Part shown: positions 3,254 through 8,759 of the stretch, piece after piece | Position numbering within the stretch: the stretch's first letter is position 1 | Layout: every line of letters begins with the position of its first letter | Origin: Rhodospirillales bacterium | Lineage (GTDB): Bacteria; Pseudomonadota; Gammaproteobacteria; Nevskiales; Nevskiaceae | Direction: 5' to 3' | Length of the DNA stretch: 64,000 nt | Assembly (NCBI GenBank): GCA_903970615.1 | Contig: CAJCJH010000087.1 | Span: forward strand, 1-64,000 | Translations under genes and position numbers: made by a program | Notes under the pieces: generated by a model | The model's input: only the letters and a program-made list of their open reading frames with translations | The model's database searches: none | What the model was told of the DNA's origin: nothing

Positions 3254-3469
3254 ATGCCGAGTGTCCGCGTCCGCGATAACGAACCGTTCGAAGTAGCCCT
3301 GCGCCGATTCAAGCGTACCTGCGAAAAGGCCGGTGTGCTCACCGATCTGCGCGCGCGCGAATTCTTTGAAAAGCCGAGCCAGGAACGTAAGCGCAAGCGC
3401 GCGGCGGCGGTGAAGCGTCAGCAGAAGCGCGTATCGCGCGAAACCGCAAGGCAGACGCGGCTGTATTGA
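3254..3469 (+). CDS. rpsU: 30S ribosomal protein S21
   Basis: Small basic ribosomal protein of the 30S platform, involved in initiation. The 71 aa product starts [20 protein letters not shown] and continues with the S21 signature [11 protein letters not shown] and [14 protein letters not shown], ending in the basic tail [11 protein letters not shown], all typical of proteobacterial S21. The frame is open further upstream, but the conserved MPSV start at 3254 is the family start. It heads the plus-strand block rpsU-yqeY-dnaG-rpoD. A TTGACT hexamer at 3194-3199 is a possible -35, but I do not see a convincing -10 at normal spacing. Confidence 0.97.
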
Positions 3470-3628: not shown

Positions 3629-4075
3629 ATGACTGATCTGAAAACCCAACTCGCCGCCGACATCATCACCGCGATGAAAGCTGGTGAGAAGACGCGCGTC
3701 GGCACGCTGCGTTTGTTATCCGCTGAACTGAAGCAGCGCGAAGTGGTGGAATCCACCGAAATCACCGACGCCGTAGTAATCGCCGCGATCGAAAAAATGC
3801 TCAAGCAGCGGCGCGATTCCGAAGCGCAATATCGCGCCGGAAATCGCCCCGAACTGGCGGACAGGGAAGCGGCGGAAATCGTCGAGCTTTCGCGTTATCT
3901 GCCGCAAGCGCTTACCGATGATGAAGTCGATGGCTTGATTACGCAGGCTGTCGGCGAAACCGGCGCGGCTGGCATCAAGGACATGGGCAAGGTGATGGCC
4001 TGGCTGAAGCCGAAAGTCGCCGGCCGCACCGACATGGGCAAGTTGTCCGGCCGCATCAAAACCCGGCTCGGCTGA
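3629..4075 (+). CDS. GatB/YqeY domain protein
   Basis: Small cytoplasmic protein of the YqeY family, related to the C-terminal domain of GatB, the tRNA-dependent amidotransferase subunit. Precise function is unknown; the fold is tRNA-binding in GatB. Family features seen are LKTQLAADIITAMKAGEKTRVGTLRLL at the start, the AAIEKMLKQRRDSEAQYRAGNR helix and the C-terminal GIKDMGKVMAWLKPKVAGR..MGKLSGRIKTRL. Length 148 aa matches. It lies between rpsU and dnaG (159 bp and 61 bp gaps), as in many proteobacteria, so it is likely coexpressed with the translation-replication-transcription block. Confidence 0.92.
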   Translation: MTDLKTQLAADIITAMKAGEKTRVGTLRLLSAELKQREVVESTEITDAVVIAAIEKMLKQRRDSEAQYRAGNRPELADREAAEIVELSRYLPQALTDDEVDGLITQAVGETGAAGIKDMGKVMAWLKPKVAGRTDMGKLSGRIKTRLG

Positions 4076-4136: not shown

Positions 4137-5960
4137 ATGAGCGGCCGCATTCCCGAAAGCTTCATCCAGGATTTACTGACCCGCACCGACATCGTCGATG
4201 TGATCGGCGCGCGGCTGGACTTGAAACGCGCTGGCAAGGAATACAAGGCGCGATCGCCGTTCACCAACGAAAAGTCGCCGTCGTTTTTCGTCTCGCCCGC
4301 GAAGCAGATGTTCTTCTGTTTTTCGTCCGGCAAAACCGGCAACGCGATCGGCTTCCTGATTGAATACGACCGGCTCACATTCGTCGAAGCAGTCGAAGAA
4401 TTGGCCAAGCGCGCCGGCGTCGAAGTGCAGCGCGAAGGCGGCGATTCCGCTCCACGGCTGGTGCTCGATGGTCCGCTCGATGCGCTCGCCGCGGCCGAAC
4501 GCATCTTCCGCAATCATCTGCGCACGCATCAGACTGCGATCGACTATCTGAAGAAACGCGGCGTCAGCGGCGACACGGCGAAACTGTTCGGCATCGGCTA
4601 CGCGCCGGATGCCTGGGATGAACTGGCGAAGGCGTTTCCGAATCCCGAACATGCGCTCGCCGCCGGTCTGCTGAAGAAAAAAGACGACGACCGCGCGCAG
4701 GCGGATACTCGTCAAAAGCAGCGGATTTATGATGTTTTCCGCAATCGCATCATGTTCCCGATCCGCGACACGCGCGGCCGCGTCATCGGCTTTGGCGGCC
4801 GCACGCTGGGCGACGATCCGGCCAAATATCTGAACTCGCCAGAAACGCCGCTGTTCCATAAAGGCCGCAATCTGTTCGGCCTGTATGAAGCCAAGCAATC
4901 GAGCAAGGCCGCGCTGCCGTATCTGCTCGTAGTCGAAGGCTATATGGATGTGGTGATGCTGGCGCAGCACGGCATTCACAACGCGGTGGCGACGCTCGGC
5001 ACCGCGACCACGCGCGAACATCTGGCCTTGCTGTTCAAATCGACGTCGCGCGCGGTGTTCTGTTTCGATGGCGACCGCGCCGGCCGGTCGGCGGCGTCGC
5101 GCGCGCTCGAACAGGCCTTGCCCGAAGTCAACGAGGGCCGCGAATGCCGTTTCATGTTTCTGCCGGAAGGCCACGATCCAGACACGCTGGTGCAGGAAAT
5201 TGGTGCGGAAGCGTTCCGCGAATTGGTCGAAGGCGCGATCACCTTGTCCGATTTCCTGATCGCTGAAATTTCAAATGACCTCAATCTCGGCAGTCTCGAT
5301 GGCCGCGCGCGGCTGGTGAGTCTGGCGCGGCCGCACTTGCAGAAATTGCGCGAAGGTCCGCTGCGGATTCTCATCATCGAAGAACTGGCGCGCATCACCC
5401 GTTTCGGCCGCGCCGATTTTGAAGCGATGCTGAGCGGCGCGCCGAATCCAGCGGCGGCGCGCACCGAATCTGCGAAGACCAATCGGCGCGAACGCCCCGA
5501 ACAACCCGGCGCGCGGCCGATCAAACGCGCACTACAATTGCTGCTGGAAAAGCCGGACATGGCGCAGCGTGTTCAGCACCTCGATCAGCTCGCTTTGGTG
5601 TCGCAGCCCGGCATTGCAATTCTGGTCGAGGCGATCGAATTCTTTCAGGAGCATCCGCAGGCTTCGTCGTCGCATCTGTTCGAGCAGTGGCGTGAAACGC
5701 CGAAAGGCGAGGCGATCCAACGCATTTCGATTTCGGATCTCGAACGGCCCGATTACAGCAAAACGCTGAACAGTCTGATCAACAGCGCGGACGCTGAAAC
5801 CGAATTCTTCGACTGCCTTGCGGAGTTGCGGATGAAGGCCTTGCGCGCGCGCGCCGAAGCACTCGCAGCACAGGCGCGCAGCGGCGAATTGAGCAGTGCA
5901 GAAATGGTGGAATGGGAAGAAATCACCCGCCAACTTTCCGCCCGTTCGTTGGTCGGATAA
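4137..5960 (+). CDS. dnaG: DNA primase with degenerate zinc-binding domain
   Basis: DnaG makes RNA primers for lagging-strand synthesis and interacts with DnaB through its C-terminal domain. Length 607 aa is normal. The TOPRIM catalytic core is intact: VVEGYMDVVML carries the catalytic glutamate, followed by ATLGTATTREH and FCFDGDRAGRSA with the DxD metal ligands; the RNAP-basic motif region (IMFPIRDTRGRVIGFGGR) is also present. The N-terminal zinc-ribbon, normally CPFHxEK...CFGC, reads SPFTNEK at 40-46 and CFSSG at 61-65: positions 40, 43, 61 and 64 are S, T, C, S instead of C, H, C, C. The domain's length and surrounding residues are kept, so it is folded but almost certainly zinc-free. Start chosen at the MSGRIPESFI motif; no good ribosome-binding site is visible. 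Confidence 0.96.
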   Translation: MSGRIPESFIQDLLTRTDIVDVIGARLDLKRAGKEYKARSPFTNEKSPSFFVSPAKQMFFCFSSGKTGNAIGFLIEYDRLTFVEAVEELAKRAGVEVQREGGDSAPRLVLDGPLDALAAAERIFRNHLRTHQTAIDYLKKRGVSGDTAKLFGIGYAPDAWDELAKAFPNPEHALAAGLLKKKDDDRAQADTRQKQRIYDVFRNRIMFPIRDTRGRVIGFGGRTLGDDPAKYLNSPETPLFHKGRNLFGLYEAKQSSKAALPYLLVVEGYMDVVMLAQHGIHNAVATLGTATTREHLALLFKSTSRAVFCFDGDRAGRSAASRALEQALPEVNEGRECRFMFLPEGHDPDTLVQEIGAEAFRELVEGAITLSDFLIAEISNDLNLGSLDGRARLVSLARPHLQKLREGPLRILIIEELARITRFGRADFEAMLSGAPNPAAARTESAKTNRRERPEQPGARPIKRALQLLLEKPDMAQRVQHLDQLALVSQPGIAILVEAIEFFQEHPQASSSHLFEQWRETPKGEAIQRISISDLERPDYSKTLNSLINSADAETEFFDCLAELRMKALRARAEALAAQARSGELSSAEMVEWEEITRQLSARSLVG

Positions 5961-6071
5961 AGGTGAAATCAAGTAGCATTTGGTCACGACTTCAAGGTAT
6001 GACTTTTCTGACGGCGGGAATCGTGCATCATTTATTCACTGCCCCAGCAGGTTCCAAAAAGAGTACGGTTG

Positions 6072-7916
6072 ATGAGCGCTTCTGACCAGCAATCACAGAT
6101 CAAAACCCTGATCGCCCTCGGCAAGGACAAAGGCTTTTTGACCTTCGCCGAAGTGTCGGATCACTTGACCGAAATCGTCGACTCCGAGCAGATCGACGAT
6201 GTCATCACGATGATTCAGGGCATGGGCATTCCGGTGCATGACGAAGCGCCGGATAGCGAGCAGCAATTGTTCTCGGAACCTGCGGTCGCTGCCGCCGAGG
6301 ATGACGAAGAAGCCGCCGAAGAAGCCGCCGCCGCGCTCGCCGCCGCAGATTCCGAATTCGGCCGCACCACCGATCCGGTGCGTATGTACATGCGCGAAAT
6401 GGGCACCGTGGAATTGCTCGACCGCGAAGGCGAAATCCGCATCGCCAAACGCATCGAGGAAGGCTTGAGCGAAGCGCTGTACTCGATGGCGATTTATCCG
6501 GAAACCGTCGCCATTCTGCTGGAAGCCTACGACATGGCGAAGGCCGGCAATAAGCGCTTGGCGGAAGTCGTACTCGGCTTCTTCGACCCGAACGCGCCAC
6601 CGCCGCCGCCCGAAGAAGTGCTGATCGAAGCGGTGGTGGATGAAGCCGCCGAGATCGACGAAAAAGACAAGGAAGACAGCGACGACGAAGAAGCCGTCGA
6701 TACCGGCCCCGATCCGGTCGAAGTCGCCAGGAATTTCGATGAATTGCAGGCGCTTTACGATAAAGCCTGGGATTCGCTGTCGCGTCTCGGCAGCGCCAGC
6801 AAGAAAACGCAGGAGCGCCGCGAAGCCGTTGCCGACCTCATCATGACGTTCCGGCTGCCGGCGAAGATCGTCGAAGAAGTCACGGTGAATCTGCGCCGGA
6901 AGGTCGAGCAGGTGCGCGCGCTGGAACGCGGCATCATGCGCATCGGCATCGAAGCCGGCATGTCGCGCGAAGAATTTCTCAGCAAGTACCGCGAAGGCAA
7001 ACCGACCGATCTGGCCTGGGTCGACAAGGCCGTGCGCGCGAAGCGCAAATATTCCGCGACGCTGGCCACGCAGCGCGGCGAGTTGAAAGTGCTGACCGAT
7101 CAGCTCGCGCAAATCGAAGCGGATAATCTGTTGTCGCTCGACGAAATCAAGGACATCTATCGCAAGATGACCGTCGGCGAAGCGAAGGCCCGACGCGCGA
7201 AGAAGGAAATGGTCGAAGCGAATTTGCGACTGGTGATTTCGATTGCGAAGAAATACACCAATCGCGGCCTGCAATTCCTCGATCTGATTCAGGAAGGCAA
7301 CATCGGCTTGATGAAGGCCGTGGATAAATTCGAATATCGCCGCGGCTACAAGTTTTCGACCTATGCAACCTGGTGGATTCGTCAGGCGATCACGCGTTCG
7401 ATCGCCGACCAGGCGCGCACGATTCGCATCCCGGTACACATGATCGAAACGATCAACAAGCTCAACCGCATCAGCCGCCAGATGCTTCAGGAAATGGGCC
7501 GCGAGCCGACGCCGGAAGAACTGGCGGTGAAGATGGAAATGCCGGAGGACAAAGTCCGCAAGGTGTTGAAGATCGCCAAGGAACCGATCTCGATGGAGAC
7601 GCCGATCGGCGATGACGAGGATTCACACCTCGGCGATTTCATCGAGGACGGCGCCGCAGTTTCGCCGCTGGAATCGGCGACCTCACAATCACTTTCCGAA
7701 GCCACGCATCAGATTCTCGCCAGCCTTACCCCGCGCGAAGCCAAGGTGCTGCGTATGCGTTTCGGCATCGACATGAACACCGATCACACACTCGAAGAAG
7801 TCGGCAAGCAGTTCGACGTTACCCGCGAACGCATCCGCCAGATCGAAGCGAAAGCGCTGCGCAAACTGCGGCATCCGTCGCGCGCGAATTATCTGCGCAG
7901 CTTCCTCGAAGAGTGA
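6072..7916 (+). CDS. rpoD: RNA polymerase sigma factor RpoD (sigma-70)
   Basis: Primary sigma factor. The 614 aa protein has region 1.1 ([21 protein letters not shown]), an acidic non-conserved insert (roughly residues 75-230, with a [16 protein letters not shown] run and a proline stretch), region 1.2 starting [11 protein letters not shown], regions 2.1-2.4 ([49 protein letters not shown]), region 3 and region 4.2 ([25 protein letters not shown]). The ATG at 6072 is preferred; a TTG directly before it is also in frame. It ends the rpsU-yqeY-dnaG-rpoD block; the 111 bp gap after dnaG could carry its own promoter, but I see no clear one. An intrinsic terminator follows. Confidence 0.98.
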
Positions 7917-8069: not shown

Positions 8070-8423
8070 TTAGTTCTTACCTTCCGGCAACTCGGGTGTG
8101 TACAGCACCGGCGTTTGCTGTGAAAACCATTTGGCCAGTTGCTTGATGTCGGCGTCGGACAAATTGGCGGCTTGTGCAGCCATGATCGCGTTCTTGCGTT
8201 CGCCGGATTTGTAGGCGTGCAGCGCGTGCTCGATGTAGTTTTCCTGCTGGCCGGCGAGATTGGGGAAGATCGGCTGCGTACTCACGCCTTCTGCGCCGTG
8301 ACATGCCGCGCAGACGCCCACCTTGTCCGGCTTTTCGACGGGGGATGCGGCCTGTGCGCTGGCGGCGAATGTCATCGCAATTGCGACTGAGGCAAGGCTA
8401 CGCTTCATGGGAGTCATCGTCAT
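8070..8423 (-). CDS. Periplasmic monohaem cytochrome c
   Basis: Small class I cytochrome c, 117 aa, with a Sec signal peptide (MKRSLASVAIAMTFAASAQA) and one haem-binding CAACH motif about residue 38, followed by NLAGQQENYIEHALHAYKSGERK, typical of the c4/c553-like subfamily, and a distal methionine candidate in IMAAQA. It presumably carries electrons in the periplasm, for example to a terminal oxidase; no oxidase gene is nearby, so its partner cannot be named. The start ATG follows directly on the TAA of the preceding cytochrome gene; a second ATG six codons in (MKRS) gives the cleaner signal peptide. The two genes form an operon and probably arose by duplication. Confidence 0.9.
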   Translation of the reverse strand: MTMTPMKRSLASVAIAMTFAASAQAASPVEKPDKVGVCAACHGAEGVSTQPIFPNLAGQQENYIEHALHAYKSGERKNAIMAAQAANLSDADIKQLAKWFSQQTPVLYTPELPEGKN

Positions 8424-8759
8424 TTATTTATGATCCGGGCCGGGCGCTGCGGAAAGGTAAGCGGCGACATCCGCCATGTCCTGATCGGAAAGCGTGCTGG
8501 CCTGCGCGTGCATGGTGCCGTGATTGCGTTCGCCGCGCTGATATTCCTTCAACGCGGCAACGATATATTCCGGATGTTGACCGCCGAGCCGCGGCACGCG
8601 ATAAGTCGGATAGACGTTGTTGTAATTCGGTATCGCATGGCAGCCAAGGCAGGTGTAAGCCTTCTGCTTGCCAGCGACTGCATCGCCATCGGCCTGCGCG
8701 TCGACGGCGCACAGCACAGAGGCGGCGAGGGCTAAAACGGCCCAGCGCGCTGATCTCAT
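8424..8759 (-). CDS. Periplasmic monohaem cytochrome c, first of tandem pair
   Basis: 111 aa cytochrome c with signal peptide (RSARWAVLALAASVLCAVDAQA) and haem motif CLGCH, followed by RVPRLGGQHPEYIVAALKEYQRGERNHGTMHAQA. The GGQ-x-YI-x-ALK-x-Y-x-GER pattern is shared with the downstream cytochrome, so both belong to one subfamily and might substitute for the two domains of a dihaem c4 cytochrome split into separate proteins; that idea is inference. Its stop codon abuts the start of the second cytochrome, implying translational coupling. Function beyond electron transfer is not deducible. Confidence 0.9.
   Translation of the reverse strand: MRSARWAVLALAASVLCAVDAQADGDAVAGKQKAYTCLGCHAIPNYNNVYPTYRVPRLGGQHPEYIVAALKEYQRGERNHGTMHAQASTLSDQDMADVAAYLSAAPGPDHK

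Follow-up and report, generated by a model that had tools for sequence, protein, structure and literature searches.

Zinc-ligand loss in the DnaG primase of Nevskiaceae and its recurrence in Alphaproteobacteria

The DnaG primase encoded in the window analysed here, a stretch of 64,000 nucleotides from a member of the Nevskiaceae, carries a zinc-ribbon domain in which three of the four zinc ligands have been replaced. The replacement is a fixed character of this family of soil and water bacteria, and the same five positions have changed independently in Alphaproteobacteria. We consider it likely that the protein is a functional DnaG whose template-binding ribbon works without zinc and is held by a polar and salt-bridge cluster. 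DnaG zinc is thus apparently replaceable.

The gene (4137..5960, plus strand, 607 aa) exceeds the curated cut-off of the bacterial DnaG primase model TIGR01391 (416.7 bits, cut-off 283.6) and sits in the conserved cluster rpsU-yqeY-dnaG-rpoD, all on the plus strand, whose other members were recognised by sequence: rpsU, encoding ribosomal protein S21 (3254..3469), the GatB/YqeY-like yqeY (3629..4075) and the sigma-70 gene rpoD (6069..7916), which closes the cluster. All DnaG domains are present. The zinc-ribbon (CHC2) domain, in its zinc-free form, covers residues 6-100 (4152..4436), as placed by Pfam PF01807 and the AF2 model; it is followed by the catalytic core, made of DNAG_N (residues 124-253) and Toprim (263-351; together 4506..5189), and by the DnaB-helicase-binding C-terminal domain PF08278 (residues 463-590; 5523..5906). 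The Toprim catalytic motifs (EGxxD, DxD) are intact, with VEGYMDVV at 266, FDGDRAGR at 310 and DPDT. The protein thus shares with the canonical CHC2 primases of E. coli, B. stearothermophilus (1D0Q) and Aquifex (2AU3) its domain order, ribbon fold, core motifs, helicase-binding domain and operon, and differs from them by the replacement of three of four ligands and by the changes G63S and A66K. On the minus strand of the same window, at 8070-8759, two adjoining small open reading frames with CxxCH haem motifs read as tandem class I cytochrome c-like proteins.

Around the metal site the protein reads KARSPFTNEKSPSFFVSPAKQMFFCFSSGKTGNAIGFLIEYD. Alignment columns 40, 43, 61 and 64 hold Cys, His, Cys and Cys in every canonical gammaproteobacterial DnaG examined; here they hold Ser, Thr, Cys and Ser, exactly as a sequence-only reading of this DNA had claimed. 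Codon 40 (4254..4256) is TCG, codon 43 (4263..4265) ACC and codon 64 (4326..4328) TCC, and the only ligand retained is Cys61, encoded by TGT at 4317..4319. Two further changes, absent from that reading, belong to the same substitution package: Ser63 (TCG, 4323..4325) stands where zinc-binding DnaG has Gly, and Lys66 (AAA, 4332..4334) where 99% of gammaproteobacterial zinc-binding DnaGs have Ala. Residues 1-104 contain one Cys (C61) and no His, so no substitute ligand set exists within the domain. The domain itself was retained, again as the sequence-only reading held, and matches the PF01807 profile with 107.9 bits, far above the gathering cut-off of 24.9. We refer to this ribbon type, defined by Ser40, Ser/Ala63, Ser/Thr64, Lys/Glu66 and Cys/Asp61, as zinc-free; that no zinc is bound is what the missing ligands lead us to infer.

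The window lies on contig C87 of an assembly of 3.17 Mb in 126 contigs that is 98% complete; among named organisms, its closest relatives are Nevskia and Sinobacteraceae/Nevskiaceae. The PF01807 domain occurs in a single gene of this assembly, the present dnaG: a second, canonical copy, for which the sequence-only reading had left room, is absent, and the genome yielded no further gene for a DnaG-type primase. Since it is the sole DnaG zinc-ribbon gene, has intact core motifs and possesses all domains, the protein must prime replication, and we take priming function to be probably retained.

Within the Nevskiaceae, a DNA pattern scan matched the zinc-free motif in 53 of 58 genomes and in 12 of 12 genera. 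The five genomes without a match comprise three that have no detectable DnaG zinc-ribbon gene, one in which only mobile-element-like primases were found (C-H-C, with the last Cys shifted) and one with a canonical DnaG. The first three (G007, G1079 and G1080) are assemblies of 92-98% completeness, and the missing gene probably reflects assembly gaps. The zinc-free form is therefore present in 53 of the 54 genomes having a chromosomal dnaG, which bears out the earlier suspicion of a lineage trait. A sequencing or assembly error, such that re-sequencing would restore Cys and His codons, is ruled out as the cause of ligand loss by the recurrence of the motif in 53 Nevskiaceae genomes. In genome G030, what looked like an in-frame stop within dnaG proved to be located upstream of the start codon. 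Residues 40/43/61/64 follow the pattern S-[TS]-[CD]-S, one genome ending in A. Of 49 distinct sequences, 34 have Asp at position 61, and so no ligand left, and the other 15 have Cys; the Asp61 sequences carry Lys at 66, rarely Arg or Gln. More distant primases in two genomes (L132-L134, in G011 and G001) retain zinc ligands of the WHCLGAC type and are probably of mobile-element origin.

Outside the family, five sister families of the same order, sampled with 17 genomes in total, have C-H-C-C throughout, as do the remaining gammaproteobacterial loci examined. A scan of 369 gammaproteobacterial genomes, mostly from different families and with a pattern blind to Gln at position 43, returned no zinc-free DnaG besides that of the window's genome; two extra matches do not translate into the DnaG motif. 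The earlier judgement that such a primase is unusual among Gammaproteobacteria thus holds in this sample.

The single canonical member of the family, G1065, bears on the timing of the switch. Its DnaG (L290, contig C8, 33362-33646, minus strand) has C-H-C-C and lies in the usual rpsU-yqeY-dnaG order, and it also has Lys66 (FGCGKHG), a residue otherwise typical of zinc-free members. In the core tree it pairs with a zinc-free congener (support 95/93), and a single clade of all zinc-free members without G1065 was not rejected (AU test, p 0.068). Three histories would fit: Lys66 arose before the ligand loss and permitted it, the ligands were lost twice, or they were regained; it is possible that this DnaG is an ancestral intermediate or a regain, and given this canonical member the zinc-free clade of the Nevskiaceae may not be uniform in origin.

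The same type of ribbon is widespread in Alphaproteobacteria. A one-per-family sample yielded SNCS, SQCS, SQDS, SGDS, STDS, STCS, SKCS and other types beside canonical families. With the class, and Hyphomicrobiales as the order sampled in depth, assigned from named relatives, about 30 of 289 genomes are zinc-free in the class-wide scan (32 matches, of which two are probably fortuitous); in the order, the motif is matched in 169 of 397 genomes and 68 of 141 genera. Methylobacterium bullatum, of the Hyphomicrobiales, has S-N-C-S, and the megaplasmid of Methylorubrum extorquens AM1, of the same order, encodes a zinc-free DnaG-like primase with S-Q-C-S (L418, 908595-908873 of the record), of which about 512 codons were read. 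Canonical ligands are found in Sinorhizobium meliloti, Sphingomonas parapaucimobilis and Tistrella mobilis. The primase of Caulobacter phage Sansa has S-T-C-S. Only 3 of 59 relatives on virus contigs (L318, L324 and L335, from IMG/VR) are zinc-free, so phages are not the main carriers of the type; one of them, L318, reads S-H-D-S and has kept the His while losing all three Cys. Like those of the Nevskiaceae, the alphaproteobacterial domains show S-x-[CD]-[ST] at the ligand positions together with altered residues 63 and 66; unlike them, they have mostly Asn or Lys, not Thr, at 43, with Lys or Glu at 66, and are of independent origin. In these sequences (L384-L416 and the order-wide matches) the residues at positions 43, 63 and 66 are linked, forming either K-A-E or N-S-K; one alphaproteobacterial family (f424) includes both sets.

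That the two groups converged is indicated by trees from which the trait itself was removed. In the core tree, built with the N-terminal domain left out, the Nevskiaceae form one clade (SH-aLRT 100) inside their own order and far from the Alphaproteobacteria. The zinc-free state requires 13 changes overall on this tree, of which at least four within Alphaproteobacteria are forced by well-supported branches. Another tree, computed for the N-terminal domain after omission of its seven trait columns, places the Nevskiaceae among gammaproteobacterial zinc-type domains (branch SH-aLRT 99), which means that the residues changed in place, by convergence and not by import. The five most divergent positions of the whole protein between Nevskiaceae and gammaproteobacterial zinc-type DnaG are 40, 43, 63, 64 and 66, and the same five are again the most divergent between zinc-free and zinc-type DnaG of Alphaproteobacteria; position 61 is exclusively Cys or Asp in the compared zinc-free sets. 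Neither residue 63 (G to S/A) nor residue 66 (A to K/E) is a ligand, and that both switch points to compensation for the lost metal. The nearly identical signature of the two groups, LSPF..EK.PSF...[CD]FSSGK, might instead suggest that recombination brought the zinc-free ribbon from Alphaproteobacteria. We regard this as very unlikely: once the seven trait columns are taken out, the identity of the Nevskiaceae domain is 0.67-0.76 with the nearest gammaproteobacterial zinc-type domain and 0.51-0.54 with the nearest alphaproteobacterial zinc-free domain, and the trait-free domain tree disfavours horizontal import of the whole N-terminal domain. A conversion tract restricted to the few trait codons is conceivable.

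The domain is under strong purifying selection. Its dN/dS (NG86) is 0.03-0.14, with values of up to 0.28 elsewhere in DnaG, and wherever all three values could be computed it lies below that of the core and that of the helicase-binding domain, one core value not being computable. Across 48 sequences, 34 columns are invariant, and the PSF / EK core varies little or not at all. An AF2 model made from 48 zinc-free sequences shows a zinc-ribbon fold with a pLDDT of 94.2 (95.4 for a control made from 48 zinc-type sequences) and superposes on the zinc-bound B. stearothermophilus domain 1d0q with 1.0 A rmsd over 92 columns. The normal ribbon fold is thus predicted to be compatible with the zinc-free sequence; AF2 draws the family fold from homology, and a high pLDDT is no proof of metal-free stability.

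Charges at the former metal site are distributed in a regular way. Among 95 distinct alphaproteobacterial zinc-free sequences, whose shared ancestry inflates the raw Fisher p values given here, Lys43 occurs with Glu66 in 21 of 22 cases (the exception has Ala66), against 12 of 73 otherwise (p 1e-11), and with Ala63 in 18 of 22 against 0 of 73 (p 7e-16); Asp61 never occurs with Glu66 (0 of 14 in this set, p 0.002; also 0 of 40 in a combined set). Tree-independent pairs number 3-6 behind these values and 2-7 for the charge pairing as a whole; they are not significant alone, and the Lys43/Glu66 pairs never run in the opposite direction. Like charges are never paired in these sets. The pattern is no more than suggestive of a cluster of salt bridges or hydrogen bonds in place of the metal.

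We thus propose that the window encodes what would be the normal and only replicative primase of a Nevskia species, in which zinc and its C-H-C-C cage would have given way in situ, at about the time the Nevskiaceae arose, to a small polar cluster of Ser40, Thr/Ser43, Cys/Asp61, Ser63, Ser64 and Lys66. Hydrogen bonds and charge pairing would join the two knuckles through this cluster, a stabilising role that we infer. The ribbon would keep its fold and most likely its job, namely to pin the single-stranded template so that the core can start a primer, and many Alphaproteobacteria would have acquired the same five-position package separately.

Other readings have to be weighed against this one. 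We consider it extremely unlikely that the N-terminal domain survives only as a degenerating relic, with priming done by the core alone. Ligand loss in animal Twinkle does go along with the loss of primase activity. This mitochondrial protein of metazoans, a relative of the zinc-ribbon primase-helicases with a changed primase module that is no longer active in animals (PMC10557236), would be the precedent; the window DnaG differs from it in keeping all catalytic motifs. Decay or a pseudogene state of the domain is contradicted by the lowest dN/dS of the protein and by the invariant columns, and decay would have scattered substitutions instead of producing the same five replacements in two lineages. 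That Cys61 persists in the window DnaG, as in 15 of the 49 distinct family sequences, could mean that the site holds another metal, or that two molecules share a zinc through this residue. We give this very little credence, as the 34 sequences with Asp61 lack a thiol at all four ligand positions and the window domain has no His.

The sequence-only reading had raised adaptation to zinc limitation, in which a zinc-poor lineage would have replaced its zinc proteins generally, DnaG included. Losing the ligands of an essential enzyme would save metal, and zinc-free paralogues of ribosomal proteins are an established precedent for zinc sparing. The C-minus paralogues of L31, L36 and other ribosomal proteins likewise are ribbons that work without ligands, and they are second copies used under zinc shortage. 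The present case differs: the only dnaG copy of the genome is the zinc-free one, with a single PF01807 gene and hence no zinc-binding counterpart or second, zinc-regulated copy. L31 keeps a CxxC (CSKC) in its visible part, IEVCSKCHPFYTG, the end of the contig truncating the gene, and LigA retains a complete four-Cys finger, so that no ligand loss was found in the two other zinc proteins checked. The trait, fixed over a whole family and many genera of an alphaproteobacterial order, follows deep lineages and behaves as a lineage character, not as a condition-dependent one. This explanation therefore fared poorly, and we consider it improbable.

A change in start-site rules, such that the zinc-free domain reads another template trinucleotide or none, is a more serious possibility, albeit a rather doubtful one. 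In primases that have been studied, sequences are recognised through the zinc-binding domain (PMC6163395), and it is the tip of the ribbon that carries the altered residues; against this, the PSF / EK core is kept, so that the reading surface may well be unaltered.

The zinc of DnaG has been described as conserved, DNA-sensing and stabilising, its ligands being called highly conserved and its exact role unresolved (PMC6163395). We found no description of a zinc-free DnaG in the open-access literature, subscription papers falling mostly outside the search. It is tempting, if still tentative, to generalise that bacterial replicative primases can dispense with zinc by a recurrent swap of five residues (40, 43, 63, 64 and 66), that this is the standard form in one family of Gammaproteobacteria and across a large part of one order of Alphaproteobacteria, and that start-site selection is altered or decoupled from zinc in these bacteria. 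Drug designs directed against the DnaG zinc site would miss such bacteria. Natural zinc-free DnaGs that are the sole copy of free-living bacteria turn the role of zinc into a matter of direct comparison, for which the canonical sister families and G1065, the canonical member of the Nevskiaceae themselves, provide the controls.
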